Assembly (NCBI RefSeq): GCF_021353235.1
Contig: NZ_JAJTWT010000005.1
Span: 124,001-188,000, forward strand
Length of the DNA: 64,000 bases
Reading direction: 5' to 3'
DNA from: Pelomonas caseinilytica
Lineage (GTDB): Bacteria > Pseudomonadota > Gammaproteobacteria > Burkholderiales > Burkholderiaceae_C
Shown here: piece by piece, positions 27,091 to 49,534 of the stretch
How positions within the stretch are numbered: the stretch's first letter is position 1
Layout: each line of letters opens with the position of its first letter
Translations under genes and position numbers: made by a program
Notes under the pieces: model-generated
Told to the model about the DNA's origin: nothing
The model's database searches: none
Seen by the model: the letters and a program-made list of their open reading frames with translations, nothing else

Positions 27091-27597
27091 CACCGGCTCC
27101 ATCCCGTGAGCGCGTGCCGGCGCAACGACGGGTGTCTGAGCCTCTCCTGGGGCACGGCCCCGGCTGCTGCGCCAAGCCGCCCGTCGGACGACCCTACCGA
27201 AACGAGCCGCGTGGCCGCACGCCGAAGGTGAACCTCAGGCGGCGTCTGACCATGCCAACGGCTGGTGCCAGTCATTGTTTCCATTCCCTGCTCCCACGCT
27301 CAATGCGGGTGCCGCCGGCTCATCGAAGCCGTCGAACCCGAAGGCCATTGCATTGCAGATCGCGACGGGCGGTTCTGTCTACAGGCCGACCGAATGCCGT
27401 AATGGGGACTCGACGCGCGTTCTTCGGGAAGAGACTTCATTGACGGGAACGTCGACCGAACGAATGGTGAGTTGCTAGGACCTGTTTCACGAATGAACTG
27501 GTGACGTCTACGCGTTCGGTGACGGTGATTTCCGCGGTCTCACCCGTCCAGCGATTTCCATCGTCGGCCGGGCAAAGATGCTTTTACCAATTGTTTC
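27091..27597. other. intergenic region, no gene recognised
   Basis: About 500 bp separating the LuxR unit from the pseudogene cluster. Open frames are short, on several frames, with no domain or ribosome site. The divergent promoter of the LuxR unit probably lies at its left end. Confidence 0.45.
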
Positions 27598-34082: not shown

Positions 34083-34562
34083 ATGCTGATTGATTGGCAA
34101 AGCGTATTCTTGCGGGTGCGGTCCGCGTTGATGCGTCGCGGCCGCTCGGAGCAGGATGCCGATGATCTGGTGCACGAGGCCTGGATCCGGCTCACCAAGT
34201 TCGCGCTCGAGCAGCCCGTGGATCAGCCGGAGGCCTTCTTGATGAAGGCGGCTCTGAACTTGTCGATCGACGCCCATCGCGCCCGGACGGTTCGAGGAGA
34301 AGAGGTCTTGCTGGAGGATGTGGTCATCGTGGACGGCAGTCCCAGCGCCGACGAGGTGGTGCTGGCGCGCGAGCGCGTGGCCCGCCTGAGCGAATGTCTT
34401 TCGCGCATGAACGAGAAGACGCGTGCCATCTTCCTCGCGCACAAGGTCGACGGGCTGAGCTACAAGGAGATTGCCCAGCAGTACGGCATCACGAAGAGTG
34501 CGGTCGAGAAGCACATCTCCAAAGGCGTGATGCTGACCGCCACGTGGATGGAGGGCTGGTAG
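34083..34562 (+). CDS. FecI-like ECF sigma factor
   Basis: 159 residues. Region 2 (QDADDLVHEAWIRLTKF) and region 4 (RMNEKTRAIFLAHKVDGLSYKEIAQQYGITKSAVEKHISKG) of an ECF sigma-70 factor are plain. It should direct RNA polymerase to the receptor and perhaps the lasso genes when released by FecR. It leads the chain sigma - fecR - TonB receptor - isopeptidase, with 2 bp between its stop and the fecR ATG. Confidence 0.93.
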   Translation: MLIDWQSVFLRVRSALMRRGRSEQDADDLVHEAWIRLTKFALEQPVDQPEAFLMKAALNLSIDAHRARTVRGEEVLLEDVVIVDGSPSADEVVLARERVARLSECLSRMNEKTRAIFLAHKVDGLSYKEIAQQYGITKSAVEKHISKGVMLTATWMEGW

Positions 34563-34564
34563 CC

Positions 34565-35620
34565 ATGACCCGGCCCCGCGCCGGTACTCCCGAGAGTGCA
34601 GAATTGAAGCCCAAGGTGACGCGCGAGATCGCCGCCGAGGCGGCGGTGTGGGTGACGCGTCTGCATGGTCCCGACCGGTCGCCGCAGATGGAGCGGGAGT
34701 TCCGCGCCTGGCAGGCGCAGTCTGCCGTCCATCGGGAGGCTTTCGAACGCTGCACCGACGTCTGGATCGACGTGGGCAAGATCAAGCTTGCCACGGCCTA
34801 TGAGACGGTGTCGCCTTCGAGCTGGCGGAAACGACCGCGCCACGGCGCGCGATGGTGGGCGGCAGGCGCTGCGACAGCGGGTATGTTGGCCGTCATGCTG
34901 CTGCTCGGCCGCCAGTGGTGGGAGCAGGGCAACTTCACCACCGACATCGGAGAGCAGCGCGCGGTGATGCTGGACGACGGCTCGCGCATGCTGATGAACA
35001 CCGACACGCAGCTGCGGATGGCCTTCGACGACCGGCAGCGGACCATCGAGGTGCGTCGCGGCGAAGCGTTCTTCGAGGTGGCGAAGGATCCGCATCGGCC
35101 GTTCGTGGTGCGCGTCTCCGGCAGCGAGGTGGTCGCCGTGGGCACGGCCTTTGCGGTGCGCTACGGAGCGGCGCAGGCCAGTTCGCCCAGCGAGCTCACG
35201 GTGACGCTCGTCGAAGGGCTGGTCAACGTCCGGCCGGCGACCGACGCCGGTGCCGATGCGGTCGCACCCGCCCAGGCCATCTCGATGAAGGCGGGCGAGC
35301 GGCTGCGACTGGACCGCAGCGCTGGATCTGCAGCGACCGAGCCGCCGAAGGTGGATCGGCCCAACGTGGACCAGGTCACCGCCTGGAAGCGCAGCGAGGC
35401 GGTCTTCGACGCCACGGCCTTGCGGGACGCCGTGGACGAGATGAACCGCTACAGCCGAACGCCGATCGTGTTGGTCGACGGGCTGAGTCGCTCGGCGCTG
35501 CGCGTCAGCGGCCTCTATCGCACCGGCGACAACCTTGGATTCGCCCGTGCAGTAGCCCACTTGCATGGCCTGCGGCTCAAGACGGAGGGCGGACGGTTGG
35601 AGCTCGGAAAAGCTCAGTAG
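34565..35620 (+). CDS. FecR-like anti-sigma / transmembrane signal relay
   Basis: 351 residues. A cytoplasmic N-terminal domain of the FecR/DUF4880 type (AAVWVTRLHGPDRS, FRAWQAQSAVHREAFER) is followed by one membrane helix at ~96-117, the periplasmic FecR beta domain (TDIGEQRAVMLDDGSRMLMNTDTQL, RRGEAFFEVAKDPHRPFVV) and a C-terminal STN-like region (DAVDEMNRYSRTPIVLVD) that meets the receptor signalling domain. It transmits ligand binding at the outer membrane to the sigma factor. The ATG at 34565 follows directly on the sigma stop. Confidence 0.93.
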   Translation: MTRPRAGTPESAELKPKVTREIAAEAAVWVTRLHGPDRSPQMEREFRAWQAQSAVHREAFERCTDVWIDVGKIKLATAYETVSPSSWRKRPRHGARWWAAGAATAGMLAVMLLLGRQWWEQGNFTTDIGEQRAVMLDDGSRMLMNTDTQLRMAFDDRQRTIEVRRGEAFFEVAKDPHRPFVVRVSGSEVVAVGTAFAVRYGAAQASSPSELTVTLVEGLVNVRPATDAGADAVAPAQAISMKAGERLRLDRSAGSAATEPPKVDRPNVDQVTAWKRSEAVFDATALRDAVDEMNRYSRTPIVLVDGLSRSALRVSGLYRTGDNLGFARAVAHLHGLRLKTEGGRLELGKAQ

Positions 35621-35697
35621 GGAGAAGCACTGGCCACGTGGCACTCGACTGAAACGTCATCTTGTTGTTCCCCTCTCAAACACAACAAGGACATCAG

Positions 35698-38600
35698 ATG
35701 AGACACACGCCCTTTCGCCGAGTCACCGAACGCCAGAACCTCCTGCCGCACGGTACCTGGCTTTCTCTCCTCCTCGCCTTCGGCTCTGCGTTCGCCGCCG
35801 ATCCGGTGCCCGTGTCACGCTACGCCATCGAGCAACCGTCGCAGGGCATGGCCGAAGCACTGCGCGCTATCGCGCGGCAGACCCGTACGTCGGTGCTCTT
35901 CGAACCGGAGGCCGTCGCGGGACGTGTGGCCCGCCCGGTTTCGGGCAGGCTGTCCGCCATCGAGGCCATCAGGCAGGCGCTGCAGGGAAGCGGGATGACG
36001 GCCGAATTGATGGCGGACGGCGCCGTCGTGGTGAAGGCATCGACTTCGGCCGCCCCTGCCGGGGCTGCCAGCCACCCGCCCGCGATGTTGCCGGCGAGTG
36101 ATCGCGATGGCCGGTTCAACGGCGGCGAGGAACGGGGCGTCCAGGGCTCGGCGCAGGACACGTCGACGGCAGCTGCCGGTGCCGCCCAGGAAAGGCAGCC
36201 GTACGAACTCATCCGCGTCGAGGTGACCGGATCACGGCTGAGGCGGCTGGATGCCGAAGGACCGGCGCCGGTGAACGTCTACAGCCGGGACGAAATCGAC
36301 CGGAGCGGGCAACCCAACCTCCAGCGCTTTCTGGCATCGCTCACGGAGGTCTCGGCCTCGTCCGGCGAGGGCGGCTTCGGCACGACGCTTGGACAGGGGA
36401 CGGTCCAGCTCCGTGGTCTGCCGCTCGGATCGACGCTGGTGCTGGTCAATGGCCGCAAGGTCCAGGGCGTGGGGTCGTTCACCGGCAGCGTGTTCAACCT
36501 CAATCTCATCCCGATGGCGGCGATCGAGCGCGTCGAGGTCGTGCCGTTGGGTTCGTCGGCCGTGTATGGCGGCGACGCGCTGGCCGGCGTGGTCAACGTG
36601 ATCCTGAAGAAGGCCATCAACGGCCAGTCGTTCACCGGCCGCGTTGGTTCGGGACGCGGCTTCAGCGACGGCAGTCTGTCTCTGGCCACCGGTGGGCGCA
36701 GCGCCGAGGGCGAGTTCCTGTTGATGGGCTCGTACAGCCGGTCTTCGCCACTGACGATGCAGCAACGCGAGTTCTTTCGGGATGCGGACTACCGCCGGTT
36801 CGGCAGCACCGACGAGCGAATGAGCTATTGCGTGCCCGGGACGGTGCGGAGCGTGACGGGCAACCTGCCGGGCCTGAACGGGAACGTCGCGGCGATCCCG
36901 GACGTTGCCGCGGGGCAGCCGTTGAAGGTTTCCGACTTCGTGGCAACGGCAGGCGCGCAGAACCTTTGCAATGTGTGGACCACCGGCGGGGGCGTCGCCC
37001 TGTTTCATGGCTACGAGACCCTCGCATTGCACGCGCTCGGCGAGCACAAGATTCTGGGCAGCTGGTCGGCATTCACCGAACTGACCTACACCCGCGATCG
37101 CATGCACGCGCCTGACGTCGGCCTTCGTCTGGGCAACGTCACCGTGCCCGCAGGCAATCCCTTCAACCCCTTCGGCGTCGACGTCAGGGTCACGGCGGCC
37201 CTCAGCCCGGACAATGGCACGGAGGGGCTCTCGCGCCAGACCCACTTCACCCGGGCCCTCGTCGGCGTTCGAGGTGAGCTGGGCCTTGGTTGGGACGCCG
37301 AGGTCTCCGCGTCGACGACAAGCGATCGCGGCGGTTCCCAGACCTGGAACGAGGCGGTCAACTCCGCGGCGTTGACCGCCGCGTTGGCCTCGACGACGCC
37401 GGCCACGGCCCTCAACCCGTTCACGTCCGGCCGCGTGGCCAGCGATACGGTGCTGCGCGGCATCTGGTCCGACAACCGGCGGCACAGTGTGGGACGCAAG
37501 GACCAGGTGTCCGGACAGGCGCGCGGAACGCTGATCGATCTGCCGGCCGGTGCGGTAGATGCGGTCGTCGGCGCAGAGGCGGCCCGGGACGCCTATGACG
37601 TCTCCAGCTCGACCGAGACCCATGGCTCCCGCACCAGCTCGGCCGCCTATGGCGAACTGCGGGCACCGCTGCTGAGGGCCGGTGGCGAGGCTGGCGGGGG
37701 CTGGAGCCTGGCCGCGCTGACGCTCGCCGGCCGTCGTGACCACTACAGCGACTTCGGCTCGGCCAATACCTTCCAAGGTGGGCTCGAATTGCGGCCGACC
37801 CGCAGCCTGCTGATTCGGGGCTCGGCGGCCAGTTCCTTCAAGCCGCCGACGATCCTGCAAACCCACGTCAACGACATCGTCTATCAGGCATCCATCTTTC
37901 GCCTCGTCGATCCGGCGCGAGGCGGCGAGCCGATCACTTCGGGCACCGTGGTGCGGACAACCAACCACGACCTGGTGCCTGAGCATGGGCAGGCCAGGGG
38001 CCTGGGCGTCGTGTGGGAGCCGGAGGGAGGGCAGGGCACGCGCTTCAGCCTCACGCACTGGCAGATGCGCATCCGCGACATGATCGCGGTGCTTCCAACG
38101 CAGTCGGCCCTCGACTATGAGAACCTGTTTCCGGGTCTGGTGACGCGGGAGCCGGCTGTGAACGGCCAGCCGGGCGCGGTCACGAGCGTGAAGTCGACCG
38201 AGGTCAACTTCGGCCGACTGGACACCTCCGGGACGGACGTCGACGTGGCGTATGTGTGGAAGACCGCCATGGGCAAGCTGACGGCGGCGGGCGGCGCGAG
38301 CCGCACCGATGAGTACCGGGTCGTGCTGGCCCCCGGCGCCGCGGCCGTGGACCGGCTCGGTCGTCGGTTCAGGGACTTTTGGGCGCCACGCTGGAAGGGG
38401 CGCCTCTCTTTCGGGCTGGACCAGGGCAGCTGGAATCTCGGCCTGACCGGCCGCTATCTGGGGCGCTACAAGGACATCGGTACGAGCGAGCGGCGCCTTG
38501 GCGACTACTGGATGCACGACCTCGCCGGCTCGCTGGATCTGAAGAAGCTGTGGCCTGACCTGCTGCCGGGCTTCCGAACGGCGTCGCTCGGTGCCAGCGT

Positions 38601-38715
38601 CGCGAACCTGACGGATCGCGAGCCGCAGTTCGCCCAGGGCGCCCCCTACTACGACGTCACGCAGGCCGACTGGCGCGGGCGCTACGTCAGCGTCCGCCTG
38701 TCGCTGGATTGGTAG
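35698..38715 (+). CDS. FecA-like TonB-dependent receptor with N-terminal signalling domain
   Basis: 1005 residues. After the signal peptide come an STN signalling domain (residues ~45-120, YAIEQPSQGMAEALRAIARQ), a Ser/Ala-rich linker, the plug (VTGSRLRRLDAEGPAPVNVYSRDEIDRSG, GSSAVYGGDALAGVVNV) and a 22-strand barrel ending in RLSLDW, the usual C-terminal aromatic signature. AAGGAC lies ahead of the chosen ATG; the frame opens earlier from a TTG without signal-like sequence. With the sigma and FecR genes it forms a cell-surface signalling triad. By position beside an isopeptidase its ligand is most likely the lasso peptide. Confidence 0.94.
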   Translation: MRHTPFRRVTERQNLLPHGTWLSLLLAFGSAFAADPVPVSRYAIEQPSQGMAEALRAIARQTRTSVLFEPEAVAGRVARPVSGRLSAIEAIRQALQGSGMTAELMADGAVVVKASTSAAPAGAASHPPAMLPASDRDGRFNGGEERGVQGSAQDTSTAAAGAAQERQPYELIRVEVTGSRLRRLDAEGPAPVNVYSRDEIDRSGQPNLQRFLASLTEVSASSGEGGFGTTLGQGTVQLRGLPLGSTLVLVNGRKVQGVGSFTGSVFNLNLIPMAAIERVEVVPLGSSAVYGGDALAGVVNVILKKAINGQSFTGRVGSGRGFSDGSLSLATGGRSAEGEFLLMGSYSRSSPLTMQQREFFRDADYRRFGSTDERMSYCVPGTVRSVTGNLPGLNGNVAAIPDVAAGQPLKVSDFVATAGAQNLCNVWTTGGGVALFHGYETLALHALGEHKILGSWSAFTELTYTRDRMHAPDVGLRLGNVTVPAGNPFNPFGVDVRVTAALSPDNGTEGLSRQTHFTRALVGVRGELGLGWDAEVSASTTSDRGGSQTWNEAVNSAALTAALASTTPATALNPFTSGRVASDTVLRGIWSDNRRHSVGRKDQVSGQARGTLIDLPAGAVDAVVGAEAARDAYDVSSSTETHGSRTSSAAYGELRAPLLRAGGEAGGGWSLAALTLAGRRDHYSDFGSANTFQGGLELRPTRSLLIRGSAASSFKPPTILQTHVNDIVYQASIFRLVDPARGGEPITSGTVVRTTNHDLVPEHGQARGLGVVWEPEGGQGTRFSLTHWQMRIRDMIAVLPTQSALDYENLFPGLVTREPAVNGQPGAVTSVKSTEVNFGRLDTSGTDVDVAYVWKTAMGKLTAAGGASRTDEYRVVLAPGAAAVDRLGRRFRDFWAPRWKGRLSFGLDQGSWNLGLTGRYLGRYKDIGTSERRLGDYWMHDLAGSLDLKKLWPDLLPGFRTASLGASVANLTDREPQFAQGAPYYDVTQADWRGRYVSVRLSLDW

Positions 38716-38826: not shown

Positions 38827-41145
38827 ATGCGCTTCTCGCTGTTCGTCACCTTGCCGTGGCTCGTCGTCGCGGCATCTTCTTCCTGGGCTCAGCCTTCGAC
38901 CGGACCTTCCGTTCGCGACGTCGTCGAGTTCAAGTCCGTCATCCTTCCGCGGGCGCACGACCTCGAAGGGTTCCGGCAGCAGACGTCACCGTCCGGCGCG
39001 CGCGCCTTCATCGTCACCCGCAAGGCCGACGTCGCGGCCGACATGAATCACTATGAGATCCTGATGCTCAACCTCGCGCCGCAGCGGCTGGCGGAGCGCC
39101 GCCCGGCCGCGCCCGAGGTCGTGTTCGCATTCGATGCCAGGTACGACAACGAATCGGGATATCCGGCCCTGGCCCAGGTGCAGTGGGCCGACGAGCGCAC
39201 CCTGGTCTTTCGGGCAAAGATCCGCGACGCGGTGTATCAGGTGTACAGCCTTGACTTGCCGACCCGCAAGCTGGTGCAACTGACCAACGCTCCGACGCCG
39301 GTCGAGTCGTTTGCCGCCTCGGTCGACCTCAAGCGGGTGGTCTACGCGGTACAGGTTCCCAATCCGCCCATGAAGGAGGGGGCCCGCAGCATCGTGGTGG
39401 GCAACCAGTGGTTTCGTGGCGTCCTGTACGGACAGCGGGCGCTGAAGGAACAGGTCCGGGCCTTCCGCTTCTACGTGGCAGACGTCGGCTCCGGCAAGCC
39501 GGCGCGGCCGCTCGGAGACGCCTTCGTCCAGGCCAATCTGGGCTGGCCCCAGGCCAACATCTCGCCTGATGGACGCTGGGCGATCCTGCCCCGGTTCGAG
39601 CGCGGCCGTACGCGAGCCTGGAGTCTGCAATACCCCTTGCTCGAAGCGGCGGCAAAGGAATACGGCCCGGCGATACGCCGCGATCCGCTGGGCTATTTCA
39701 GTGGTCCCATGTCCTTCGCGGCCCGGCGCATGGTGGCCTGGCGCCTGGACGATGCGCACGAGCAGACCATCCTCGATGCGCCCGACGATTCGATCATGGG
39801 CGGCCGCCAATCCCGACGAGACAAGGTCTGGCAGGCCACGGGATCTTCCGTCGTGCTTGCCGGCACGCATCTTCCGCTGATCGACGGCCGCCAGGTATCC
39901 GCCGCCTCGCATGTCATCGAGTACTGGCCGGACAGCGGACGCTGGATCGTCGTCGCCAAACTGAACGGCCGCCTGGAGGAGGCGCTGCCGGCGGGCGACG
40001 GTGTGGTGGTCATGGACAGCGGCAAGAGGCGGCAGTTCCAGCGCCTTGACGCAGGGGGCTGGCAGGAGGTGGCGCCGGTGCCGCGAGCGTCCGGATCGGG
40101 TTGGCGCCTGCAGTTGCAGGAGGGACCCAACGAACCGCCGGATGTCTTCGCCGTCGGGCCAGCCGGCCAATCGGTACGTCTGACGACGTTGAATCCGCAA
40201 TTCGACCCCAAGACCTGGGGCACCATGTCGTCCTTTCAATGGCGCGACGCCAAGGGACGGCAGTGGCAGGGTGGCCTCATGGCGCCGGTCGAGGACCGCG
40301 GCAAGCGACTACCCCTGGTCATCCAGAGCTACAACTACTTCCCGGACACCTTCTACCTGGACGGCCCCAACTTTGCCGACCGCACCGGCACCAGCGCCTT
40401 CCCGGGACGCGCCTTCGTCCGCGAAGGGGTGCTGGTCCTTGCCATGCGCGCACAGCCCGGCACGGCGCCCCATCGCGATGACGCGAACCAGAATCGCCTG
40501 TTCAACGAGGGCGTCAGAGGGGCCGTGGACGCGCTCGTCAGGGCAGGGCGCGTCGACCCGGCGCGCGTCGGCATCATCGGCTGGAGCGGTACGGGGGAGA
40601 AGGTTCTCAACGCCATCACGTTCTCCGACCTGCCGATCCGAGCGGCGACCATCGCCGACGGCGACGCCAACACACTGTTCTCGTACGCGGTGACCTATGG
40701 GTTTTCGGACTACACCTGGGGCCACAAGGAGACCGTGAACCGAGGCCTTCCTATCCGGCCGAACCTCGGGGCCTGGATCGAAACCGACCCTTCGATGAAC
40801 ACGGACTGCGTCAAGGCGGCACTACGCATCGAGACCTACGGCATCCCGGTGCACAACTATTGGGACATCTACGCGCTGATGCGCCGCCAATACAAGCCGG
40901 CCGACATGATCCTCATTCCGGGGGGCTCGCACGGATTGGCAACGCCCAGCGAGCGCATGATCTCCTTGCAGGGCAATGTCGACTGGTTCAATTTCTGGCT
41001 GAATAACGAGAAGCGCAGTGTGCCGCTGCTTGCAGCCGAGACCGCCGCCACGCTGCAGGCCCAGTACGAGGCCTGGGACCAGATGGCCGCGATGAAGCGA
41101 ACCCACGACAGACGTCCGCGCTGCCCGCTGGCCAGCGTCGGCTAA
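38827..41145 (+). CDS. lasso peptide isopeptidase (prolyl-oligopeptidase family)
   Basis: 772 residues: signal peptide ending near SWAQ, a seven-bladed propeller-like region at about 50-480, then an alpha/beta-hydrolase domain with Ser587 in GWSGTG and His702 in GGSHGL; the acid is probably the Asp/Glu-rich loop between them. This is the AtxE type, which opens the Gly-Asp/Glu isopeptide bond of the cognate lasso peptide in the periplasm. Its position behind a TonB receptor and facing lasso genes supports that reading over a general peptidase. It converges on the exporter gene with 6 bp between the two stops. Confidence 0.9.
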   Translation: MRFSLFVTLPWLVVAASSSWAQPSTGPSVRDVVEFKSVILPRAHDLEGFRQQTSPSGARAFIVTRKADVAADMNHYEILMLNLAPQRLAERRPAAPEVVFAFDARYDNESGYPALAQVQWADERTLVFRAKIRDAVYQVYSLDLPTRKLVQLTNAPTPVESFAASVDLKRVVYAVQVPNPPMKEGARSIVVGNQWFRGVLYGQRALKEQVRAFRFYVADVGSGKPARPLGDAFVQANLGWPQANISPDGRWAILPRFERGRTRAWSLQYPLLEAAAKEYGPAIRRDPLGYFSGPMSFAARRMVAWRLDDAHEQTILDAPDDSIMGGRQSRRDKVWQATGSSVVLAGTHLPLIDGRQVSAASHVIEYWPDSGRWIVVAKLNGRLEEALPAGDGVVVMDSGKRRQFQRLDAGGWQEVAPVPRASGSGWRLQLQEGPNEPPDVFAVGPAGQSVRLTTLNPQFDPKTWGTMSSFQWRDAKGRQWQGGLMAPVEDRGKRLPLVIQSYNYFPDTFYLDGPNFADRTGTSAFPGRAFVREGVLVLAMRAQPGTAPHRDDANQNRLFNEGVRGAVDALVRAGRVDPARVGIIGWSGTGEKVLNAITFSDLPIRAATIADGDANTLFSYAVTYGFSDYTWGHKETVNRGLPIRPNLGAWIETDPSMNTDCVKAALRIETYGIPVHNYWDIYALMRRQYKPADMILIPGGSHGLATPSERMISLQGNVDWFNFWLNNEKRSVPLLAAETAATLQAQYEAWDQMAAMKRTHDRRPRCPLASVG

Positions 41146-41156
41146 GCGCGCTCAGC
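41141..41156. terminator. inverted repeat over both stop codons of convergent operons
   Basis: GCTAAGCGCGCTCAGC is a near-perfect palindrome (7 of 8 arm positions) and contains the TAA of the isopeptidase and the complement of the exporter TGA. It lacks a loop and U-tract, so any terminator activity would be weak. Confidence 0.25.
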
Positions 41157-42945
41157 TTGCGCCGTCGATCTGTTGCCGCCACATCCGCGCGTACCGTCCG
41201 TCCCGGGCCAGCAGATCGGCATGCAGCCCACGCTCGTGGATTCGCCCGTCAACCAGGACAATGATCTCGTCGGCTCGCATCACCGTCGAAAGTCGGTGAG
41301 CCACGACCAGCGTCGTGCAGCCGGCCGCGGCCTGCCGGAGCTCGACGAGGACTTCGGCCTCCGTCTTGCTGTCCAGCATCGAGGTCGGCTCGTCGAGCAG
41401 GAGGACGGTGGGCCTGCGCAGCAACGCGCGCGCGATGGCCAGGCGCTGGCGCTCGCCTCCAGAAAGCTTGAGGCCGCGCTCCCCGACCATCGTCCCGTAG
41501 CCGTCAGGCCATGACTCGATAGCCTCGTGAAGTCTGGCGGCTTTCGCTGCACTGACAATGCTGTCCATGCCGGCCCCCGGGCGCCCCAGTGCGATGTTGC
41601 TGCCGATGGAGGCATGCAGTAGCGGTGTGTCTTGAGGCACCAGTGCCATCTGCCTGCGCAGCGCGCCGAGCGCCAGCATGTCGATCGGATTCCCGTCCAG
41701 CAGGATGCGCCCCGCTTGCGGCGAGTACAACCGCAGTAGCAGGCGGATCAACGATGACTTCCCAGAGCCGCTGGGACCGACGACAGCGATGGTGCGCCCC
41801 GCCTCGACATGGAGGTCCAGTCCACGGATCACTGGCCGCTCGGGGTCGTAGCCAAAGGTCACCCCTTCGAATCGGATCGTGGACGGTTGCCGCGACGGCC
41901 TGCCCGATGGCTGTCCGGGGGAGACGGTCGCTGTCAGGATCGCGGCACCCTCAATCTCTTCACGGAGGATCTCAAGCAGCGGTTGAGAGAGCCTGAGCGA
42001 ACGCGATAGATCTCGCATGGCGGACCCGAGCACCTCGAGTGGTCTCACCATCTGCAGCAAATAGATGCCGGTCAGGATGAAGCCGCCGACGCTCAGGGAT
42101 CCACTGGCCACGCCGTTCGCAGCGATTCCCAGGCTGGTGGCCAGCGATACCGCAAAGACGGCCGTCGCTGCGACTCCCGTGCCAGCGCTGGCCCGGTAGT
42201 AGCCCTGCCAACGGTCGACCAGCGATGATGAGGCCACCGCGAGCGCTTGCTCGGCCTCGTCTTCCGCGCACAGACAGCGCAGCGTTTCGACATTGGCCAA
42301 TCCGTCGGCGAGCTGCCCGTGTACGGCCAGGCTCGACGTCGTGACGGCATCGGCATGACGCGTCAACCGCCGCGCGCCCTGTGCGAAGACAGCCAGGTAC
42401 AGGGTTGCGGTGGCACCGAACAACATCATCAGCGCCGGCTGCTGCAGCCGGGTCAAGATCCAGGCCATCACCGAGAGTTCCACGGCGACCGGCGCGAGGC
42501 TGTGGACCAGATGAGTCACGAGCAGTTGGATGCCCGCGCAGGACAGGTCGAGGCTGTGCAGAAGCTCGCCGCTTCGCCGATTGAGCAGACGGGAGAGTGG
42601 CAGGCGCAGGACGTGCCCGTAGAAGCGTCGTCTCAAGGCCGCCACGAGACGCTGGTCAGCAGCTCCAGTGCACAGTGGCCGCAGGTCACCCAACAAACGA
42701 GCACCGCACAGGGCTGCGATGTAGAGCGCGACGGCTGCCAGGATGGACGACGGCGACGCGGCTCGGGCCCCCGGGGCAGCGGCCACCGCATCGACCAGAT
42801 GTTGCAGTGCCAGCGGGGAAAGCGCCGACAAGGCGCCCCCGAGGACGACGAGCAGGGTCGCCGCAGCCATCTCGCGCCATATGACGGGGTCGGCGACCTC
42901 CCTGATCAGGCGCAGAACGGCTCGGAGCCCACTGCCGCGACGCAT
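41152..42945 (-). CDS. lasso peptide ABC exporter (D protein)
   Basis: 597 residues, a half-transporter: six membrane helices in the first ~310 residues, then the nucleotide-binding domain with Walker A GPSGSGKSS, Q-loop ALVPQDTPLLHAS, signature LSGGERQRLAIARALL, Walker B TVLLLDEPTSML and H-loop VVAHRLSTV. No C39 peptidase domain, as expected, because the leader is removed by the B protein. It exports the matured peptide and gives self-protection. It lies 12 bp after the cyclase gene. Confidence 0.92.
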   Translation of the reverse strand: MRRGSGLRAVLRLIREVADPVIWREMAAATLLVVLGGALSALSPLALQHLVDAVAAAPGARAASPSSILAAVALYIAALCGARLLGDLRPLCTGAADQRLVAALRRRFYGHVLRLPLSRLLNRRSGELLHSLDLSCAGIQLLVTHLVHSLAPVAVELSVMAWILTRLQQPALMMLFGATATLYLAVFAQGARRLTRHADAVTTSSLAVHGQLADGLANVETLRCLCAEDEAEQALAVASSSLVDRWQGYYRASAGTGVAATAVFAVSLATSLGIAANGVASGSLSVGGFILTGIYLLQMVRPLEVLGSAMRDLSRSLRLSQPLLEILREEIEGAAILTATVSPGQPSGRPSRQPSTIRFEGVTFGYDPERPVIRGLDLHVEAGRTIAVVGPSGSGKSSLIRLLLRLYSPQAGRILLDGNPIDMLALGALRRQMALVPQDTPLLHASIGSNIALGRPGAGMDSIVSAAKAARLHEAIESWPDGYGTMVGERGLKLSGGERQRLAIARALLRRPTVLLLDEPTSMLDSKTEAEVLVELRQAAAGCTTLVVAHRLSTVMRADEIIVLVDGRIHERGLHADLLARDGRYARMWRQQIDGAS

Positions 42946-42957
42946 CGCGAGTCGAAC

Positions 42958-44781
42958 TCAGCCCGTTACGGGGCGAGACCTGACGTTTGCGGCGCGCTGC
43001 AGCCAGGTCTCGACGGCGATGCAGGTATGGACTTCGGTCACGTAGGCGTCGCTCGTCGATGGGCGCCCAGCCAGCGTCGCTTCGACGCGGGGCCGGTCCA
43101 GCAAGGCCCTTCGTGCCAACTCTCCATCCAGCAACAGATGCCGGGCGAGGGGCAGGCTGCGCTGGAGGACCGATGTGACATGCTCTTCCGTGCCGCCTTT
43201 GGAACGGCGGACGGCGATTTCGGGCGGCAGGCGATCCGCAAACGATTCGCGGGCCAGCCCTCGGCCGCGCCCCCCGCAGGTGAGGAGGTAAGTGGGCAGG
43301 GCAAGGCTCAGCTCCAGCAGCGGCTGCGACATGAGCGGGTGGACGAGCTCGGGCGATGTCGCGGCGGCGAAGGGGTTGTAGTAGTCGAACGGAGAGATCA
43401 ATGCGCGCAGCTGGGCAAGTTTTCCGATGGGCAGATCGAATGCCTCCAGCAGGCCCGGATGGATGAAGCGCTGCGCACGCTCAAGGGTCGCCTCGATCAC
43501 GCTGCGAGGCACCAGGGTCACGTATTGGCCGGCGCCCGCCATCGGATCGTGTGTCGCGAATCGGTCCCGGAACGCGAGGCACAGGCTTTTCCAGAAAGAC
43601 ACCTCGCCCAACCGAGCGGCGTCGAGCACGGCTGCCGGGAAACCTCGATCGACCCCGCGCAGCTGCAGGTAGTCGGCGGCGGTCCAGGTGCAGCGGACTT
43701 CTTCGAAAAGCTGATCTCCACCGGCCCCGGTAAAGATGACTGGCGCCTCATGAGCGCGCGCCACTTCCGCATCCATCCGGTCCGAGCCCATGCGGCCGAT
43801 ATAGCTGCCCGGCGCCGGTGTGAGCGCGGGATTCATCACCTCACCGAGGTGGAAGCCAATGTCTCTCTGTCTCTCGACCAAGGGACATCCGACGCGTGTG
43901 GCAGCCAGTCGAGCGTAGCGACGCTCGTCGCTGTCCGATCCGGGCGAGAAGTAGTTGAGACACAGGACGCTGGCCGTGGGCGCAGGACTGAATAGGCAGC
44001 CGAGCAGGATGGCGGAATCGACGCCTCCGGAGAGGCGGAGCACGATGTTGTCGTAGCAGGCCATCCATGACCGTATGCACTGCGTCGTGACGTCGCGCTG
44101 CATCCGAGCTGCAAGGTCAAGGTCTGGATCCACAGGGCGGCGGGCGACATCGATGGCCCGCCAAAGCGGCCGCGCCGGCGTCGGGCCTGTCGAAAGCACG
44201 GTCAGCTCACCGGGCAGCACCTGGCTCACTCCGTCCAGGGCCGTCTCCCGCCCACCAAGGCGGCCGAAGACGAGCACTGCGGCGACCGCGTCCCAGTTGA
44301 TCGCTGGCCGCGCGATCCCCATCAGGTCGATCAGATCCTCCAGCCAAGAGAAGGCGATGGAGAGGCCTTCCAGCTCCAGGCGATAGCAGGGAAGAGTTCC
44401 CGTGGGATCCCTGAGCACCCGAGCTTCGCCGGTCCAGGATGGGAGGAAGGCGATCCACCGACCCCAGAAGTGATCGATCAGGGCTTGGCCGTCCGACCGG
44501 ACGATGCGATCGGCCTCCTGATCGGTCAGCTCGATGTCGCAGGAATGTGGTGTGGAGGTCTCGTGCCGACGGAACAGCCGTCCGAGAACCAAGCCACCGC
44601 CGGACGGCAGCAAGTAGCTGTCATTCACGCCTCGGCGGTTGCCAGTGATGTAGACCTTGAGCCCGGCCGAAGAAAAGGCCCCGCGCCAACCGGCGGCCTT
44701 GAGCCGGTCGGCCAATCGTGAAGCCAGTTCGGTGGGCACTTCGCATGAAGGTGCCCAGCTGAAGCCGATGTAGCGGAACAT
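42958..44781 (-). CDS. lasso peptide cyclase (asparagine synthetase-like C protein)
   Basis: 607 residues. An N-terminal glutaminase-like domain without the catalytic Cys is followed by the synthetase domain with the ATP pyrophosphatase loop RLSGGVDSA at about 250-258 and TGAGGDQLFEEV further on. It adenylates the ring Glu side chain of the core and joins it to the Gly1 amine. It lies 6 bp after the B gene. The length is usual for proteobacterial C proteins (about 550-620). Confidence 0.93.
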   Translation of the reverse strand: MFRYIGFSWAPSCEVPTELASRLADRLKAAGWRGAFSSAGLKVYITGNRRGVNDSYLLPSGGGLVLGRLFRRHETSTPHSCDIELTDQEADRIVRSDGQALIDHFWGRWIAFLPSWTGEARVLRDPTGTLPCYRLELEGLSIAFSWLEDLIDLMGIARPAINWDAVAAVLVFGRLGGRETALDGVSQVLPGELTVLSTGPTPARPLWRAIDVARRPVDPDLDLAARMQRDVTTQCIRSWMACYDNIVLRLSGGVDSAILLGCLFSPAPTASVLCLNYFSPGSDSDERRYARLAATRVGCPLVERQRDIGFHLGEVMNPALTPAPGSYIGRMGSDRMDAEVARAHEAPVIFTGAGGDQLFEEVRCTWTAADYLQLRGVDRGFPAAVLDAARLGEVSFWKSLCLAFRDRFATHDPMAGAGQYVTLVPRSVIEATLERAQRFIHPGLLEAFDLPIGKLAQLRALISPFDYYNPFAAATSPELVHPLMSQPLLELSLALPTYLLTCGGRGRGLARESFADRLPPEIAVRRSKGGTEEHVTSVLQRSLPLARHLLLDGELARRALLDRPRVEATLAGRPSTSDAYVTEVHTCIAVETWLQRAANVRSRPVTG

Positions 44782-44787
44782 CGCCGG

Positions 44788-45519
44788 CTAGACGACGAGT
44801 ATGGGCGTGAAGCCCCGCACGTGCTCGTGCATGTCATTGAGCACCAGGGTGCCGGCCTGCACCCAGGAGTGCGCGGCAAATGGCCGCATCCTCACGCCGA
44901 TCACCCATTGCGGATGCAGTTGTTCGGCAGCCAGAAACCGCACCAGGGTTAATGAGTCGTGCAGGCACTCGTCTCGCGAGCTCATCACCAGGGGCCTCGT
45001 CCGCAGGTACCAACGGGCGGCATCGCGAAGCGCCTCCGCGGGGAGTCGGTCGTCATCCCTGTGGCGGAGGGGGCGCATGGAGGCGACGGTTTGGGTGATC
45101 GTCGCCAAGCTGCGGTGCTTGAGCCAGCCTGACGCGATGAACGACGAACGGGCCAGGTTGGCAATGCGGCGCCATTGAAGCGCCGACGAGATCGAGGCGC
45201 TGGCGTCGTAGACGCTCGCATCAGGCAGCATGTAGGCTGCGTTCACTGACGCTGGTGTCGCTGCGCAAGCCAGCAGACCCTGACGGCGCAGGTCATCGAC
45301 CCGTCGTTCGACCTCGGAGTCTGGGTCGCTGGGAAGGCCGGTCGACGGTCTGGCGGGCCAGCCGCCAACCGCGCGGGACAGTGCGCAGACCAAGGGCCCG
45401 CCTACCCCGATGTAGCGGCCCCGCTCCAGATCCAGCAGGACCACCACTCCATCGACGAGGCAAGCGCGGACATGATCGGCGAGGCGATATTCCGGGAGGG
45501 GCGATGCTTGCGTCGGCAT
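44788..45519 (-). CDS. lasso peptide leader peptidase, fused RRE and transglutaminase-like (B protein)
   Basis: 243 residues. Residues ~8-85 form a PqqD-like RiPP recognition element that binds the leader; residues ~105-243 are a transglutaminase-like Cys protease with Cys185 (SRDECLHDSLT), His217 (FAAHSWVQ) and Asp229 (LVLNDMHEH). It binds the precursor and removes the leader. Fused B1-B2 is the proteobacterial form. I chose the ATG at 45519, which has AGGA seven bases ahead; the frame opens at 45558 but without such a site. Confidence 0.93.
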   Translation of the reverse strand: MPTQASPLPEYRLADHVRACLVDGVVVLLDLERGRYIGVGGPLVCALSRAVGGWPARPSTGLPSDPDSEVERRVDDLRRQGLLACAATPASVNAAYMLPDASVYDASASISSALQWRRIANLARSSFIASGWLKHRSLATITQTVASMRPLRHRDDDRLPAEALRDAARWYLRTRPLVMSSRDECLHDSLTLVRFLAAEQLHPQWVIGVRMRPFAAHSWVQAGTLVLNDMHEHVRGFTPILVV

Positions 45520-45573
45520 GGTGATCCTGATGGGCGTGCGCCATAGAGGCGCACGCAAAGTCGCGTCAAGAAA

Positions 45574-45693
45574 TCAGATCTCCTTGAAGAGCGCGACTTG
45601 GTTCTCTTCGGGCTTGGGCAGGTCGGGCCGACCCTTGGTCTCTTCCTTGGCGTCGCCCAGGTCGACCAGCTCCAGTTGCGGTGCTTCGTTCAT
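45574..45693 (-). CDS. lasso peptide precursor (A)
   Basis: 39 residues from an ATG with AAGGAG seven bases ahead. The leader is 20 residues (ends EETK) with the required Thr at position -2. The core is then GRPDLPKPEENQVALFKEI: Gly1, and Glu9 as the only acid at ring position 7-9, giving a nine-residue macrolactam. Calculated monoisotopic mass of the lasso form is about 2161.15 Da (my sum). The longer frame from 45768 would add 25 residues that are not leader-like. It lies 54 bp before the B gene. Core assignment is inferred from the family rule; the sequence itself is unambiguous. Confidence 0.92.
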   Translation of the reverse strand: MNEAPQLELVDLGDAKEETKGRPDLPKPEENQVALFKEI

Positions 45694-45724
45694 GACGTTC
45701 TCCTTCAGGTTGCGTGCTTGTGAA

Positions 45725-45737
45725 ATGCCTTCGGCAT
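45725..45737 (-). promoter_or_regulatory. small hairpin in the precursor leader mRNA
   Basis: ATGCC-TTC-GGCAT, a perfect 5-bp stem with a 3-base loop, 32-44 bases upstream of the precursor ATG. It may stabilise the abundant precursor message or be incidental. Confidence 0.25.
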
Positions 45738-46106
45738 CGGCTTCAGGCAACGAAAAGATAGACGGCACTCTGAGGGCCGAACAAACTCAAAGGCCGCTGA
45801 AACGCGGCGTTCGGCCACGGGCCATCCCCTGCTGGAGAGTGCCGCCGGCACGTCTGCGCGCCACGACTCAGGTGGCCGCATCGCCGCGTACGTTCGGCGG
45901 ACCGGTCGGCTGAAGCCCCGGCATCTGCTGACGCGGCATGCGAGCTGGTCGATCCGCTGTCGAGCAGCCGCTGTCGGCAGGTACGCACGCGCCTACGCAG
46001 ATGCGCACGCGCGCGTGGACCTGTGGCAACGAGGCGGCCACCGAACGATTGGGGAGGTGGTCAGTCGAGGCGCTGAGGTTTTTCCGTCCAGAAACGTCAT
46101 GGAGTT
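45738..46106. other. intergenic region between precursor and RAYT-like gene
   Basis: About 370 bp between divergent genes. It should hold the lasso biosynthetic promoter on the minus strand. I could not fix a -35/-10 or ECF-type promoter by eye. No gene or repeat is evident. Confidence 0.4.
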
Positions 46107-47084
46107 ATGGAGTACTCCATTCCAAGAAGTGCATCGACATGGCACATCTGCTGGCAGGCCGCGACGGGGCGCGACCTCGTTGCGGATTCCAGACTGGTCG
46201 GGCGCGTCCGTGAGCGGCTGCTGAACGCGCATCGCGCCGAAGGGCGGCAGTTGCTGCACTACTTGATGATGCCGACTGAGATCCATCTCCTGTCGTGCCT
46301 GCCGGTCGGACAGAGTCCGCCGGCCATCGTCCGGGCTATCGCCGCCGTCGTGTCCCGCTGGGTGCGGGAGACGCAGCCCGTGAGGGGACCCGTCTTCGCC
46401 GCGCGCTACCGCGCGCACGAGATCCGGTCCGATTCAGAGCTCGAGCGTGAGATTCGAATGCTGGCCTGGAGGCCGGTGCAAATCGGGCTATGCGTGACGC
46501 CCGTCCACTACACGCACGCCTCCCTGCGGACGACGCTGGGCCTCAACCGCGCGCAGGGATTCGACTCGAGGGCACTGCTCGGGCTGTTTGGCGCAACGGT
46601 GCCCGAGGCACGCAAGGGCCTGCGCGGGGTGGTACGGCGCCGGCCCGGCGAGGCGGAGTGGCGAGAGTGGGAGTTGAACCACGGATTGACGCTCGCCGTG
46701 GGGTCCATAGGACCGAGCTTCGGTATGGCACGCGAGGTGAAGGGCGATGCAGCCATTCTGGTGGCAGCGGCAGATTCAAGAGACATCGACGGTGGCTTGA
46801 AGTTGTTGGAACGATGGGTCGCCGTAAGGCTCGGTTTGGATGCCGACCAAGATCTGTCATCACTGGCCGGCCCGCAAGGTGCCCGAGCCAGGGCGTTGGT
46901 GGGTGGGCTCGCCGTGCGTATGGACTTATGTCCTGCGGCGGCGGTCGCCCGGCACTTCAAGCGCGCGAAGGCGACGTTGTGCGAACAAATGACGGCGTCT
47001 CGCCTGAGGGAAGACGATCGCCGGCTGATCGCGACGCCAATTCAACTGGTCTTGGACGAGCTCGCGGCATTGAACCGGTTCTGA
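46107..47084 (+). CDS. RAYT/Y1 transposase-derived protein, catalytically dead
   Basis: 325 residues. The N-terminal ~150 residues follow the REP-associated tyrosine transposase plan: a long helix (VRERLLNAHRAEGRQLL), then HYLMMPTEIHLL where active enzymes have LMPNHVHL, then FAARYRAHEIRSDSELEREIRML and RPVQIGLCV where they have YxxxNPVRAGLV. The first His of the HUH pair reads Glu and the catalytic Tyr is missing. The C-terminal ~140 residues end in a helix-turn-helix (ARALVGGLAVRM, VARHFKRAKATLCEQMTASR). The frame is intact. It lies divergent from the lasso precursor, so a DNA-binding regulator is plausible. Function is not known. Confidence 0.62.
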   Translation: MEYSIPRSASTWHICWQAATGRDLVADSRLVGRVRERLLNAHRAEGRQLLHYLMMPTEIHLLSCLPVGQSPPAIVRAIAAVVSRWVRETQPVRGPVFAARYRAHEIRSDSELEREIRMLAWRPVQIGLCVTPVHYTHASLRTTLGLNRAQGFDSRALLGLFGATVPEARKGLRGVVRRRPGEAEWREWELNHGLTLAVGSIGPSFGMAREVKGDAAILVAAADSRDIDGGLKLLERWVAVRLGLDADQDLSSLAGPQGARARALVGGLAVRMDLCPAAAVARHFKRAKATLCEQMTASRLREDDRRLIATPIQLVLDELAALNRF

Positions 47085-47200: not shown

Positions 47201-49534
47201 TCAAGCCGCCGCGCCGGTTGACGCACCGGCCTGACGCCGCCGCATGCCGTGGATGAGCGGCAGCAGGCCCACGAGCCAGAGTGCCGGCGTTGCAGGCTCC
47301 GGCACGGCACTGATGCTCAGCTCTCCGCTCGAATACAGCTTCGACGTGTCCCACTTCAATCCGGCGGCCAGCGGCGCGCCAGACAGGTCGATCTGTGAAA
47401 AGCTGCCTTCGCTGCGGCCCCAGTCGAACAGGTCGAAGCGCTGGCCCGCCTGCCCCGCGAAGTGGTTCCACCACACCACCTTGAGCACGCCACCGAAGCC
47501 GAGCGTGCCGGCGACCTCGTACTTGTCGAAGCCGGAACCCGGAGCCAGGCCGCCGATCTCGGCGAGATACACGTTGCCGCTGCCGAAGGCCACGTCGCCG
47601 CTGTCCACGCCGAGGCCGGGCGAAGCGCCCACCGACAGGCCGCCCTCGTAGAACTTGGACCCGGTGCCGGAGAAGATGGCGCCCGTGCGTTGAAGCACCT
47701 GGCCGAAGAAGACGGCGGTGCTGCCGCTGGACACGCGCAGTTCCCCGCCGGACCTGACATCCACGGTGTCGTAGAACGTCGTGTCGCTGTTGCCCGACAG
47801 GGCGATGCGCCCACCGGAGACCGTCGTGACTGCCCCGTGCACGTCCGAGGTTCCGAAGGTCACATCGATCTGGCCTGCGTTGTTCGCACCGCCGGACAAG
47901 CGAAGCTGCCCGTTCTTCAGGAAGATCCGGCCGCTGGCGGCGTTGTCGAGCTGACCGCCGAACTCCAGCACGCCGCCATCGGCGGCTTCCATCGTGCCGG
48001 CGTTGCGATGCGAGGCGCCGGTGATCTGCAGCGCCTGGCCCGCGCCGCTGCGCACCATCCCGCTGGCGGTGTTGTCCAGGCTGGCGTTGAGATGGCCGTC
48101 GCCCTCGACCAGCCCGGCGTTGGAGAAGCTGCCGGTGACGCTGAGGTTATCGGCGCGCACCGTGCCCCGGTTGACCAGGTCGCCGCGGATCGTGCCGTCG
48201 CCGGCAAGCGTGCCTGTGGCCTGCACGGTGACGCCGCCGGTGGCTGTCAATTGCGCGCCGTACTGCAGGAGCAGTTGCGGCCGGCCGCTGCCACCGGCGG
48301 CGCTGCCCAGGCTCAGACTCTTGACCGCTGTGTCGGTGCTGGCCTGGATGGTCTGGCGCCCTGCCGGTGCGACCACCGCATCGAGGAAGCGGCTCGGCGC
48401 GAAGCCCTGTTCCCAGTTCGCCCCATCGGCAAAGCTGCCGCCCGCGCCGCCCGTCAGCCAGGCGATCGAGCCGGTCGGGGTCAGCAGCACGGCGTGGGCC
48501 TGGCCCGTCGTCATGCGCGCCGTGGCGGCGATCTGGCCGGCGTCGTTGATGCCGTTGGCCCGGGTGACCGTGGCGCCGCTGCCTGCAGGCAGCAGGGCGT
48601 TGAGGTCGGTGATGCCGCCTTGGGCGGTGGCCAGGAAGCCGCGGCTCTCGCCACTGACCGTGCTGGAAGTGCCGACCACCTGCCCGGCCGCATTGATTCC
48701 GTAGCCCTGGCTGGAGGCGCCGCCGAGGGTGCCCAGGTCCTGAATGGCGCCGGAGCGCCACAGGACGGCGTGGAGATTGCCATTGGCGGCATACGAGGAG
48801 CCCGCCACCAGCCCCGTGGCGTTGATCGCATAGCCGACGCTGCCGTTGCCCGCCAGGCTGCCCAGGTCCTGCATGGCGCCGGTCTGCCACAGGAAGGCAT
48901 GAGTGGTGTTGGCGCTGGTGTCGGAATCACCCACCACCTGGCCGGCAGCGTTGATGGCGCGGGCGGTGCTGTAGATGCCGCCCAGCGAGCCCAGGTCCTG
49001 CATGTTGCCTGTCTGCCATAGGAAAGGATGCTGCCGGGCGTCGCCGCGGATGTCGGAGTAGCCCACGACCTGGCCGTTGGCATTGATGCCGAAGGCGGAG
49101 CTGTAGGTGCCTCCCACGGTGCCCAGGTCCTGCAGGTTGCCGGCCTGCCACAGGAAGGCGTGTCCGGCATTGCCGCCCGTGTCGGAATAACCCACCACCT
49201 GCCCGGCGTCGTTGATGCCGTTCGCGTAGCTGAGACTGCCGCCCAGCGTGCCCAGGTCCCGCATGCCACCGGCCTGCCACAGCACGGCATGTCGAGCGGC
49301 ATCTCCTCGGGTCGTGGACGAGCCCACGACGTCTCCGGCCGCGTTGATGCCAGCAGCGCCGCTGTTCGAGCCGCCCAGCGTGCCCAGGTCGGTGACGGTG
49401 AACCGCACCGCCGCACCGGCTGGCAAGGAGCCTAGGAGCGCCGGGAGGGCGAGCAGCGGGCCGCACAGCGTGCGCAGCAAGGCCTGTGGGTGGCGTGCGC
49501 GCAGGCGGCGCGCGAAGGAGGGTTTGCGTTTCAT
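47201..49534 (-). CDS. HAF-repeat PEP-CTERM surface protein
   Basis: 777 residues. After a signal peptide ending AGAA come about seven HAF repeats of ~42-44 residues from residue 49 to ~340, each with DLGxLGG, GINAxGQVVG and HAFLWQxG. A beta-helix-like region of Gly/Ala/Asn-rich sequence follows (~370-620), then a jelly-roll-like domain, then a PEP-CTERM tail (VPEPATPALWLVG, GMRRRQ). Probably a secreted, exosortase-processed matrix protein. DNA repeats here mirror the protein repeats. No adhesin or enzyme motif is seen. Confidence 0.88.
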   Translation of the reverse strand: MKRKPSFARRLRARHPQALLRTLCGPLLALPALLGSLPAGAAVRFTVTDLGTLGGSNSGAAGINAAGDVVGSSTTRGDAARHAVLWQAGGMRDLGTLGGSLSYANGINDAGQVVGYSDTGGNAGHAFLWQAGNLQDLGTVGGTYSSAFGINANGQVVGYSDIRGDARQHPFLWQTGNMQDLGSLGGIYSTARAINAAGQVVGDSDTSANTTHAFLWQTGAMQDLGSLAGNGSVGYAINATGLVAGSSYAANGNLHAVLWRSGAIQDLGTLGGASSQGYGINAAGQVVGTSSTVSGESRGFLATAQGGITDLNALLPAGSGATVTRANGINDAGQIAATARMTTGQAHAVLLTPTGSIAWLTGGAGGSFADGANWEQGFAPSRFLDAVVAPAGRQTIQASTDTAVKSLSLGSAAGGSGRPQLLLQYGAQLTATGGVTVQATGTLAGDGTIRGDLVNRGTVRADNLSVTGSFSNAGLVEGDGHLNASLDNTASGMVRSGAGQALQITGASHRNAGTMEAADGGVLEFGGQLDNAASGRIFLKNGQLRLSGGANNAGQIDVTFGTSDVHGAVTTVSGGRIALSGNSDTTFYDTVDVRSGGELRVSSGSTAVFFGQVLQRTGAIFSGTGSKFYEGGLSVGASPGLGVDSGDVAFGSGNVYLAEIGGLAPGSGFDKYEVAGTLGFGGVLKVVWWNHFAGQAGQRFDLFDWGRSEGSFSQIDLSGAPLAAGLKWDTSKLYSSGELSISAVPEPATPALWLVGLLPLIHGMRRRQAGASTGAAA

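Follow-up and report, generated by a model that had tools for sequence, protein, structure and literature searches.

Within the 64,000-nucleotide stretch of Pelomonas caseinilytica DNA analyzed here (contig NZ_JAJTWT010000005.1; referred to as the window), from a genome of 5.98 Mb in 40 contigs, the computed open reading frames (ORFs) and their order delineate a lasso peptide cluster. The precursor gene A and the genes B, C, and D form an operon on the minus strand that is convergent to genes for a FecI-type sigma factor, a FecR-type anti-sigma factor, a TonB-dependent receptor, and an isopeptidase. Divergent from A is a further gene, here called X, which encodes a transposase-like protein, and repeated asymmetric CGTTCGGY boxes lie in the A–X gap. 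An earlier note on this DNA described the precursor and its partners; it did not mention X and the box array, the more surprising element of the locus. We consider it probable, from comparison of sequences, that X is a domesticated, cleavage-dead transposase that became a dedicated regulator, probably an activator, of the operon in this class II lasso cluster with its predicted Gly1–Glu9 ring. The A–X junction comprises the following features.

45574..45693, minus strand: lasso precursor A, 39 residues (leader 45634-45693, core 45577-45633)
45727..45748, minus strand: conserved hairpin where the lasso mRNA is inferred to begin
45755..45760, minus strand: −10 element of the A promoter, TATCTT (inferred start ~45748)
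45776..45783, minus strand: additional inverted box (TGTTCGGC), which in this genome overlaps the −35 region
45808..45815, plus strand: box 1 (CGTTCGGC), 54 nt upstream of the −10 element
45891..45898, plus strand: box 2 (CGTTCGGC), 83 nt past box 1
46040..46047, minus strand: inverted box nearer X
46107..47084, plus strand: X, predicted cleavage-dead RAYT-like protein with a DnaA domain IV-like tail, the proposed regulator

A fold search matched X to a REP (repetitive extragenic palindrome)-associated Y1/HuH transposase, or RAYT (PDB 4er8), followed by a tail with a tentative resemblance to domain IV of DnaA. X scored 41.1 bits against the RAYT model NF047646, below the curated cut-off of 80, and a sequence profile search of the PDB returned nothing relevant. 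The first histidine of the HuH motif is a glutamate in 36 of 36 X sequences (E-x-H), the position of the catalytic tyrosine holds tyrosine in none of the 36, and the NP asparagine is absent from X (LAWRPV). No stop codon interrupts the matched part of any of the 36 sequences, and the ratio of nonsynonymous to synonymous substitution (dN/dS) is 0.07-0.25. A search of the P. caseinilytica genome for a paralog of the tail found none at E < 0.1. X thereby has the appearance of a RAYT, a relative of the IS200-like transposases, that has been domesticated and is unable to cut DNA.

The distribution of X follows that of one type of lasso cluster. Searched with the B family model, 399 genomes of the family yielded 29 B places, spread over 24 carriers. 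We fetched 26 of the 28 places outside P. caseinilytica, with its own as the 27th, leaving out L008 (a 3.3-kb contig) and L026 (below the cut-off); the X search supplied 37 named loci, partly from genomes already in the B set. A search with the X alignment, apparently of the same draw of 399 family genomes, gave matches in 37 at E 1e-5. Full-length X (421-529 bits) occurs at 19 places in 17 of these genomes, and the other matches are two fragments at 128 and 99 bits and hits of at most 43 bits. All 17 genomes with full-length X lie within the 24 B carriers and hold a C homolog of this type. Seven B carriers are without full-length X; the five that were fetched have no C of this type at E 1e-5, and two were unfetched. 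In a class-level draw, X matched at 1e-20 in 1 of 369 genomes, that of P. caseinilytica itself.

In 32 of 34 named records with near-full-length X, the opposite strand carries a precursor at a distance of 305-510 nt from the X match; the exceptions are L069, whose X lies at the edge of the locus, here the end of the contig, and L068, an orphan. L039, L045, and L051 are clusters whose fetched stretch contains no X. All three keep box 1, two of them also box 2, and each of their genomes carries X elsewhere. The orphan X belongs to Aquabacterium humicola (L068/L126) and is on a different contig from the lasso cluster of the same genome, L045; an ORF at a distance of about 750 nt resembles, by eye, an insertion sequence (IS) transposase. 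This X is likely a relocated copy acting in trans. A contig labeled Nostoc sp. CHAB 5836 (L089, NZ_JAIVFV010000131.1) carries a lasso cluster close to that of Paucibacter sp. PLA-PC-4, with an X that is 98% identical; this contig is probably from a contaminating bacterium.

We next describe the boxes. GTTCGG was counted on both strands of 29 A–X regions, this one included, out of 33 with a precursor (L085-L087 and L089 are outside the set). The count is 78; 200 shuffles gave 7.9 ± 2.5 and never more than 15. Relative to the window, the enrichment is 7.6-fold. These figures are to be read knowing that the word had been found in the very regions counted. An exact CCGAAC is present in 33 of 35 promoters entered into a profile, at −115 to −141 relative to the called A start codon; the start codons of L073 and L090 were perhaps called too far downstream. 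When these 33 promoters are anchored on the box (position 0), there emerge a T at +31 (82%), a G at +33 (67%), and a TANCTT −10 element at +54 to +59 (70-82% at the fixed letters), followed by a GCC element, while the columns around the box hold little information. A scan of 45400-46200 with the σ70 consensus had found no promoter; the −10 and −35 elements came to light only through this anchoring. Box 1 lies about 63 nt upstream of the inferred start, in keeping with a class I activator site, which lies near −61 of a σ70 promoter.

The distance between boxes 1 and 2 falls into classes. It is 82-87 nt in 15 of 30 promoters, 91-96 nt in 14, and 104 nt in 1; with exact boxes alone (27 promoters), the counts are 12, 14, and 1. 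The spacings of L050 and L071 include one mismatch, and for L088, box 1 was set by hand and box 2 is one of four candidates with one mismatch. Where several candidates for box 2 were present, the script chose the one nearest to a spacing class, and L082 also has an exact box at 72 nt. Mapped on the X tree, the spacing class requires 6 changes, and well-supported branches force at least 3 of them. The offset of about ten base pairs between classes suggests that the two sites must share a face of the helix.

One lineage (L088 and L089) departs from the common box. By eye, it has TCAAAC in exact register with the −10 element and TCGAAC 83 nt above, both in place of CCGAAC, and the helix-turn-helix (HTH) segment of its X reads CSKGTLSVQM in place of RAKATLSEQM. 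This single case is suggestive of a protein and its site changing together. Boxes are also present upstream of fecI, at places that differ among the three loci inspected. Outside the cluster, two CGTTCGGT words separated by 58 nt stand in divergent orientation in the window (27455-27520).

The inferred start of the lasso mRNA coincides with a conserved hairpin. On 28 of 35 promoters, 92% of the cells of the alignment pair. Changes on both sides of a pair occur in 16 cells; shuffles give 5.4, with none of 500 as high, and structures slid along the alignment reach at most 8; the structure was derived from the alignment on which it was tested, and relatedness inflates such counts. The number of pairs with changes on both sides is less clear (4 versus 2.2, with 6 of 500 shuffles as high and one slide also giving 4). 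The hairpin may serve to stabilize the mRNA, or it may be a binding site for the RAYT-like half of X.

These observations can be assembled into a scheme. B would cut off the leader, C would close the Gly1–Glu9 ring, and D would export the resulting class II lasso peptide; the TonB-dependent receptor, FecI/FecR, and the isopeptidase would presumably serve its re-uptake, sensing, and linearization. The DnaA domain IV-like tail of X probably binds the CGTTCGGY boxes between X and A. We infer activation rather than repression because box 1, at about −63, occupies the position of a class I activator and box 2, upstream of it by about eight or nine turns of the helix, would face the same way. In this scheme, X would turn on the lasso operon and probably control its own gene.

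Several results temper this scheme. The fold-search tool warns about matches in helical regions, to which the DnaA domain IV match of the tail belongs. A circular test of the spacings is nearly flat from 9.5 to 11 nt (0.68-0.72) and does not single out 10.5 nt. The pattern of box and −10 element in register occurs once in the P. caseinilytica genome, at the lasso promoter (45755-45814), and 16 times in 17 X genomes, 12 of these at the lasso promoters of 10 genomes; in 17 genomes picked from the list of those lacking X, it occurs 4 times. Its reversed control gives 27 matches in the X genomes and 55 in the others. The number of matches is therefore not raised, and it is their place that counts. 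In seven X genomes the lasso promoter is off the exact pattern. The two-box pattern is likewise unspecific in the genome, with 13 matches versus 23 for the reversed control.

That X is instead a repressor, which by occupying the boxes would hold the promoter closed in a loop until released by a signal, we regard as doubtful. Two spaced boxes would suit looping, and in P. caseinilytica the extra box at 45776-45783 overlaps the −35 region; however, this inverted box is found only here among the loci mapped, and the conserved box 1 lies off the promoter. It is less probable still that the boxes serve another host regulator and that X has a different role, such as binding the lasso mRNA hairpin or single-stranded DNA. 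The compensatory changes in the 5′ hairpin favor such a role, and the available part of PMC8266576 describes TnpA-REP proteins as acting on structured, single-stranded REPs. Yet it is X that was found to accompany these promoters, also in trans, its tail resembles a fold that binds duplex DNA, and in the sole lineage where the boxes differ, the HTH segment differs too, albeit as a single event. The view of X as a decaying mobile-element passenger that hitch-hikes with the cluster is largely refuted, and we assign it a very small probability. X does belong by fold to a transposase family, and the orphan copy lies near a possible IS transposase; but the open frames, the low dN/dS, the replacement of the same residues throughout, the position and orientation fixed in 32 of 34 records, and the absence of a full-length copy from the other 382 of 399 genomes all speak against decay.

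An extension of the activator scheme, speculative and on balance unlikely, would give X two hands, the tail reading phased duplex boxes and the RAYT domain gripping the hairpin at the transcript start, as an exposed DNA strand or as RNA. With the same low probability, a two-handed X would couple the choice of promoter to the type of structure that its ancestors cut, and would do so in trans on sister clusters. We know of no earlier TnpA- or RAYT-derived transcription factor dedicated to a natural-product operon.

A parallel in kind is TldR, a group of nuclease-dead, TnpB-derived repressors. TldRs are, as proposed here for X, IS200/IS605-family proteins without catalysis that were reused in gene control; they derive from the RNA-guided TnpB, whereas X comes from the TnpA/RAYT side. 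By its fold matches, X would share the two-part architecture of RAYT and DnaA-like C-terminal domain with subclass 2.1 of the TnpA-REP proteins, as described in the available part of PMC6006769. Members of that subclass are said there to all share the HuH and Y motifs, whereas X lacks the first histidine, the tyrosine, and the NP asparagine. X also sits at lasso promoters with CGTTCGGY boxes, in contrast to the repeats given in that part of the source, GGGG[AT][CG]A[CG]. Among the papers listed in our literature searches, we found no such loss of catalysis, link to lasso clusters, or operator array. In the available portions of four papers, the word transposase is absent from three (PMC5067487, PMC12670498, and PMC13352647) and occurs once in the fourth, for a mutagenesis vector (PMC11006600).

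The precursor itself translates on the minus strand into the leader MNEAPQLELVDLGDAKEETK, then the core GRPDLPKPEENQVALFKEI, then a stop codon, which bears out the earlier description of a 39-residue precursor with Thr at −2; the core starts with Gly1. Recalculation gave a lasso mass of 2161.153 Da ([M+2H]2+ 1081.584), in agreement with the predicted value of about 2161.15 Da. The precursor scores 35.3 bits against NCBIfam NF033522 (benenodin family), above the cut-off of 33, and its matches to Pfam DUF5974 and Subterisin are below their cut-offs. Thr −2, a small residue 1, an Asp or Glu at 7-9, and adjoining B and C genes are all present, as expected of a class II lasso cluster. The ORF is beyond chance because it matches NF033522, because B, C, and the transporter follow directly, and because similar leaders precede many different cores in related genomes. 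The gene is real, and its product is very probably a new yet ordinary lasso peptide.

The ring was examined in 34 distinct cores of the group, this one included, read from the fetched B and X loci. Position 1 is Gly in all 34, and position 9 is acidic in all 34 (Glu in 31; Asp, after Glu8, in 3). Acids occur at position 8 in 7 and at position 7 in 3, and Glu9 is the sole acid at 7-9 in 24, among them the present core, as the earlier note had claimed for the ring-forming positions. Closure on Glu10 or another residue, or an ORF that is not processed as a lasso peptide at all, is highly improbable: Glu10 is also acidic in this core, but an acid is present at 10 in just 19 of the 34. The Gly1–Glu9 ring proposed earlier has good comparative support, short of proof, and stays a prediction. 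The pattern of prolines at 3, 6, and 8 is unusual for the group, through Pro6 (3 of 34) and Pro8 (2 of 34), both rare; Pro3 is common (13 of 34). The core is unlike each of the 33 others, and neither the core nor the leader letters tried turned up in the open-licence PubMed Central literature.

The remaining genes of the cluster, of which the FecI-like ORF and FecR (34083-35620) are additions to those noted before, are as follows.

44788..45558, minus strand: B protein, leader peptidase (NF033537, 74.6 bits, cut-off 33; Transglut_core3, 65.5 bits)
42958..44781, minus strand: C, Asn-synthase-like macrolactam synthetase (PF00733; homologs adjoin A in relatives)
41152..42945, minus strand: D, ATP-binding cassette (ABC) transporter (PF00664 and PF00005)
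38827..41145, plus strand: divergent lasso isopeptidase (NF033523, 138.2 bits, cut-off 400)
35662..38715, plus strand: TonB-dependent receptor (Plug PF07715, 64.9 bits; STN PF07660, 25.6 bits, below the cut-off of 28.4)
34565..35620, plus strand: FecR-type anti-sigma factor (PF04773)
34083..34562, plus strand: FecI-type sigma factor (named from sequence and position only)

The B2 part of the B protein was detected directly, and a B1-like N-terminal part is suggested by its length; the ATG at 45519 is the probable start codon of B. A single-protein search of the genome_contigs collection with C gave no match. FecI homologs are present in L033, L036, L064 (Rubrivivax benzoatilyticus JA2), L074, and L081. 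Beside X, a long ORF of repeated DLGTLGG-type motifs (47201-49534, minus strand) has an end that by eye is PEP-CTERM-like.

The partner genes had been called intact. All of their ORFs are open; the isopeptidase, however, is less certainly active than that word implies, because the position of AtxE2 Glu610 is a Pro here (residue 674) and is variable in relatives (Glu, Pro, Trp, Leu, or Val). The protein scores below the curated cut-off of the AtxE2-type model NF033523. Its Ser587 and His702 align with AtxE2 Ser527 and His638 and are invariant in 10 of 10 aligned sequences; Ser587 aligns with a residue that differs between the AtxE2 PDB sequences 5txc and 5txe. We take the Ser, the His, and Glu610 to be the catalytic residues of AtxE2. 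If this branch of isopeptidases works, its catalytic acid would have to lie elsewhere, for example at the invariant Glu669 or Asp680. An isopeptidase search of 399 genomes of the order, a sparse draw, returned only the P. caseinilytica genome at E 1e-20; family-level sampling found relatives.

By count from the locus map, 21 fetched clusters of this type (this one included) divide into 12 with both ABC transporter and isopeptidase, 4 with an isopeptidase and no transporter beside C, 4 with a transporter and no isopeptidase, and 1 with neither; three of the four clusters that lack only the isopeptidase lie at contig ends. The available part of PMC5067487 describes the isopeptidase of proteobacterial clusters as replacing the transporter, so that the cluster in the window holds both of what are there alternatives. 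In the second cluster of Pelomonas aquatica (L033:8715-11229 and L081, the same cluster), the match to C between B and D is confined to its first part, and the cluster therefore seems incapable of ring closure; it keeps isopeptidase, receptor, and X, and its genome has a sister cluster, L032, with full-length C. In Roseateles cellulosilyticus (L084), two different precursors stand in tandem (9462 and 9652) ahead of one B–C–D set.

Two known systems bear comparison. The benenodin/AtxE2-type clusters share with the window the NF033522 leader match, the isopeptidase, the TonB receptor, and FecR, and differ in the isopeptidase, which here is far under the NF033523 cut-off and has not kept the Glu610 position. 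The rubrivinodin clusters of Rubrivivax gelatinosus resemble the present one in their betaproteobacterial host and undivided B protein. What we take to be the rubrivinodin sequence also shares Gly1 and an acid at 9 followed by E/D-N, and differs in its core letters. PMC7549694 and PMC5067487 describe rubrivinodin as produced in E. coli and list it as lacking heat stability.

The peptide adds one more natural lasso scaffold with a rare pattern of ring prolines, which is useful and incremental. The architecture of RAYT and DnaA-like tail was known; what is new is a cleavage-dead form, with its box array, that very likely regulates lasso operons. Our search found no paper joining lasso peptide regulation with FecI and a TonB-dependent receptor, and such regulation seems little described. 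If the proposal is true, X would show what a RAYT can become after the loss of catalysis, and it would answer in one case a question raised in the available part of PMC6006769, namely what the DnaA-like tails of subclass 2.1 recognize. If X is an activator, its expression would be a simple way to wake silent clusters in Roseateles, Pelomonas, Paucibacter, and Rubrivivax.
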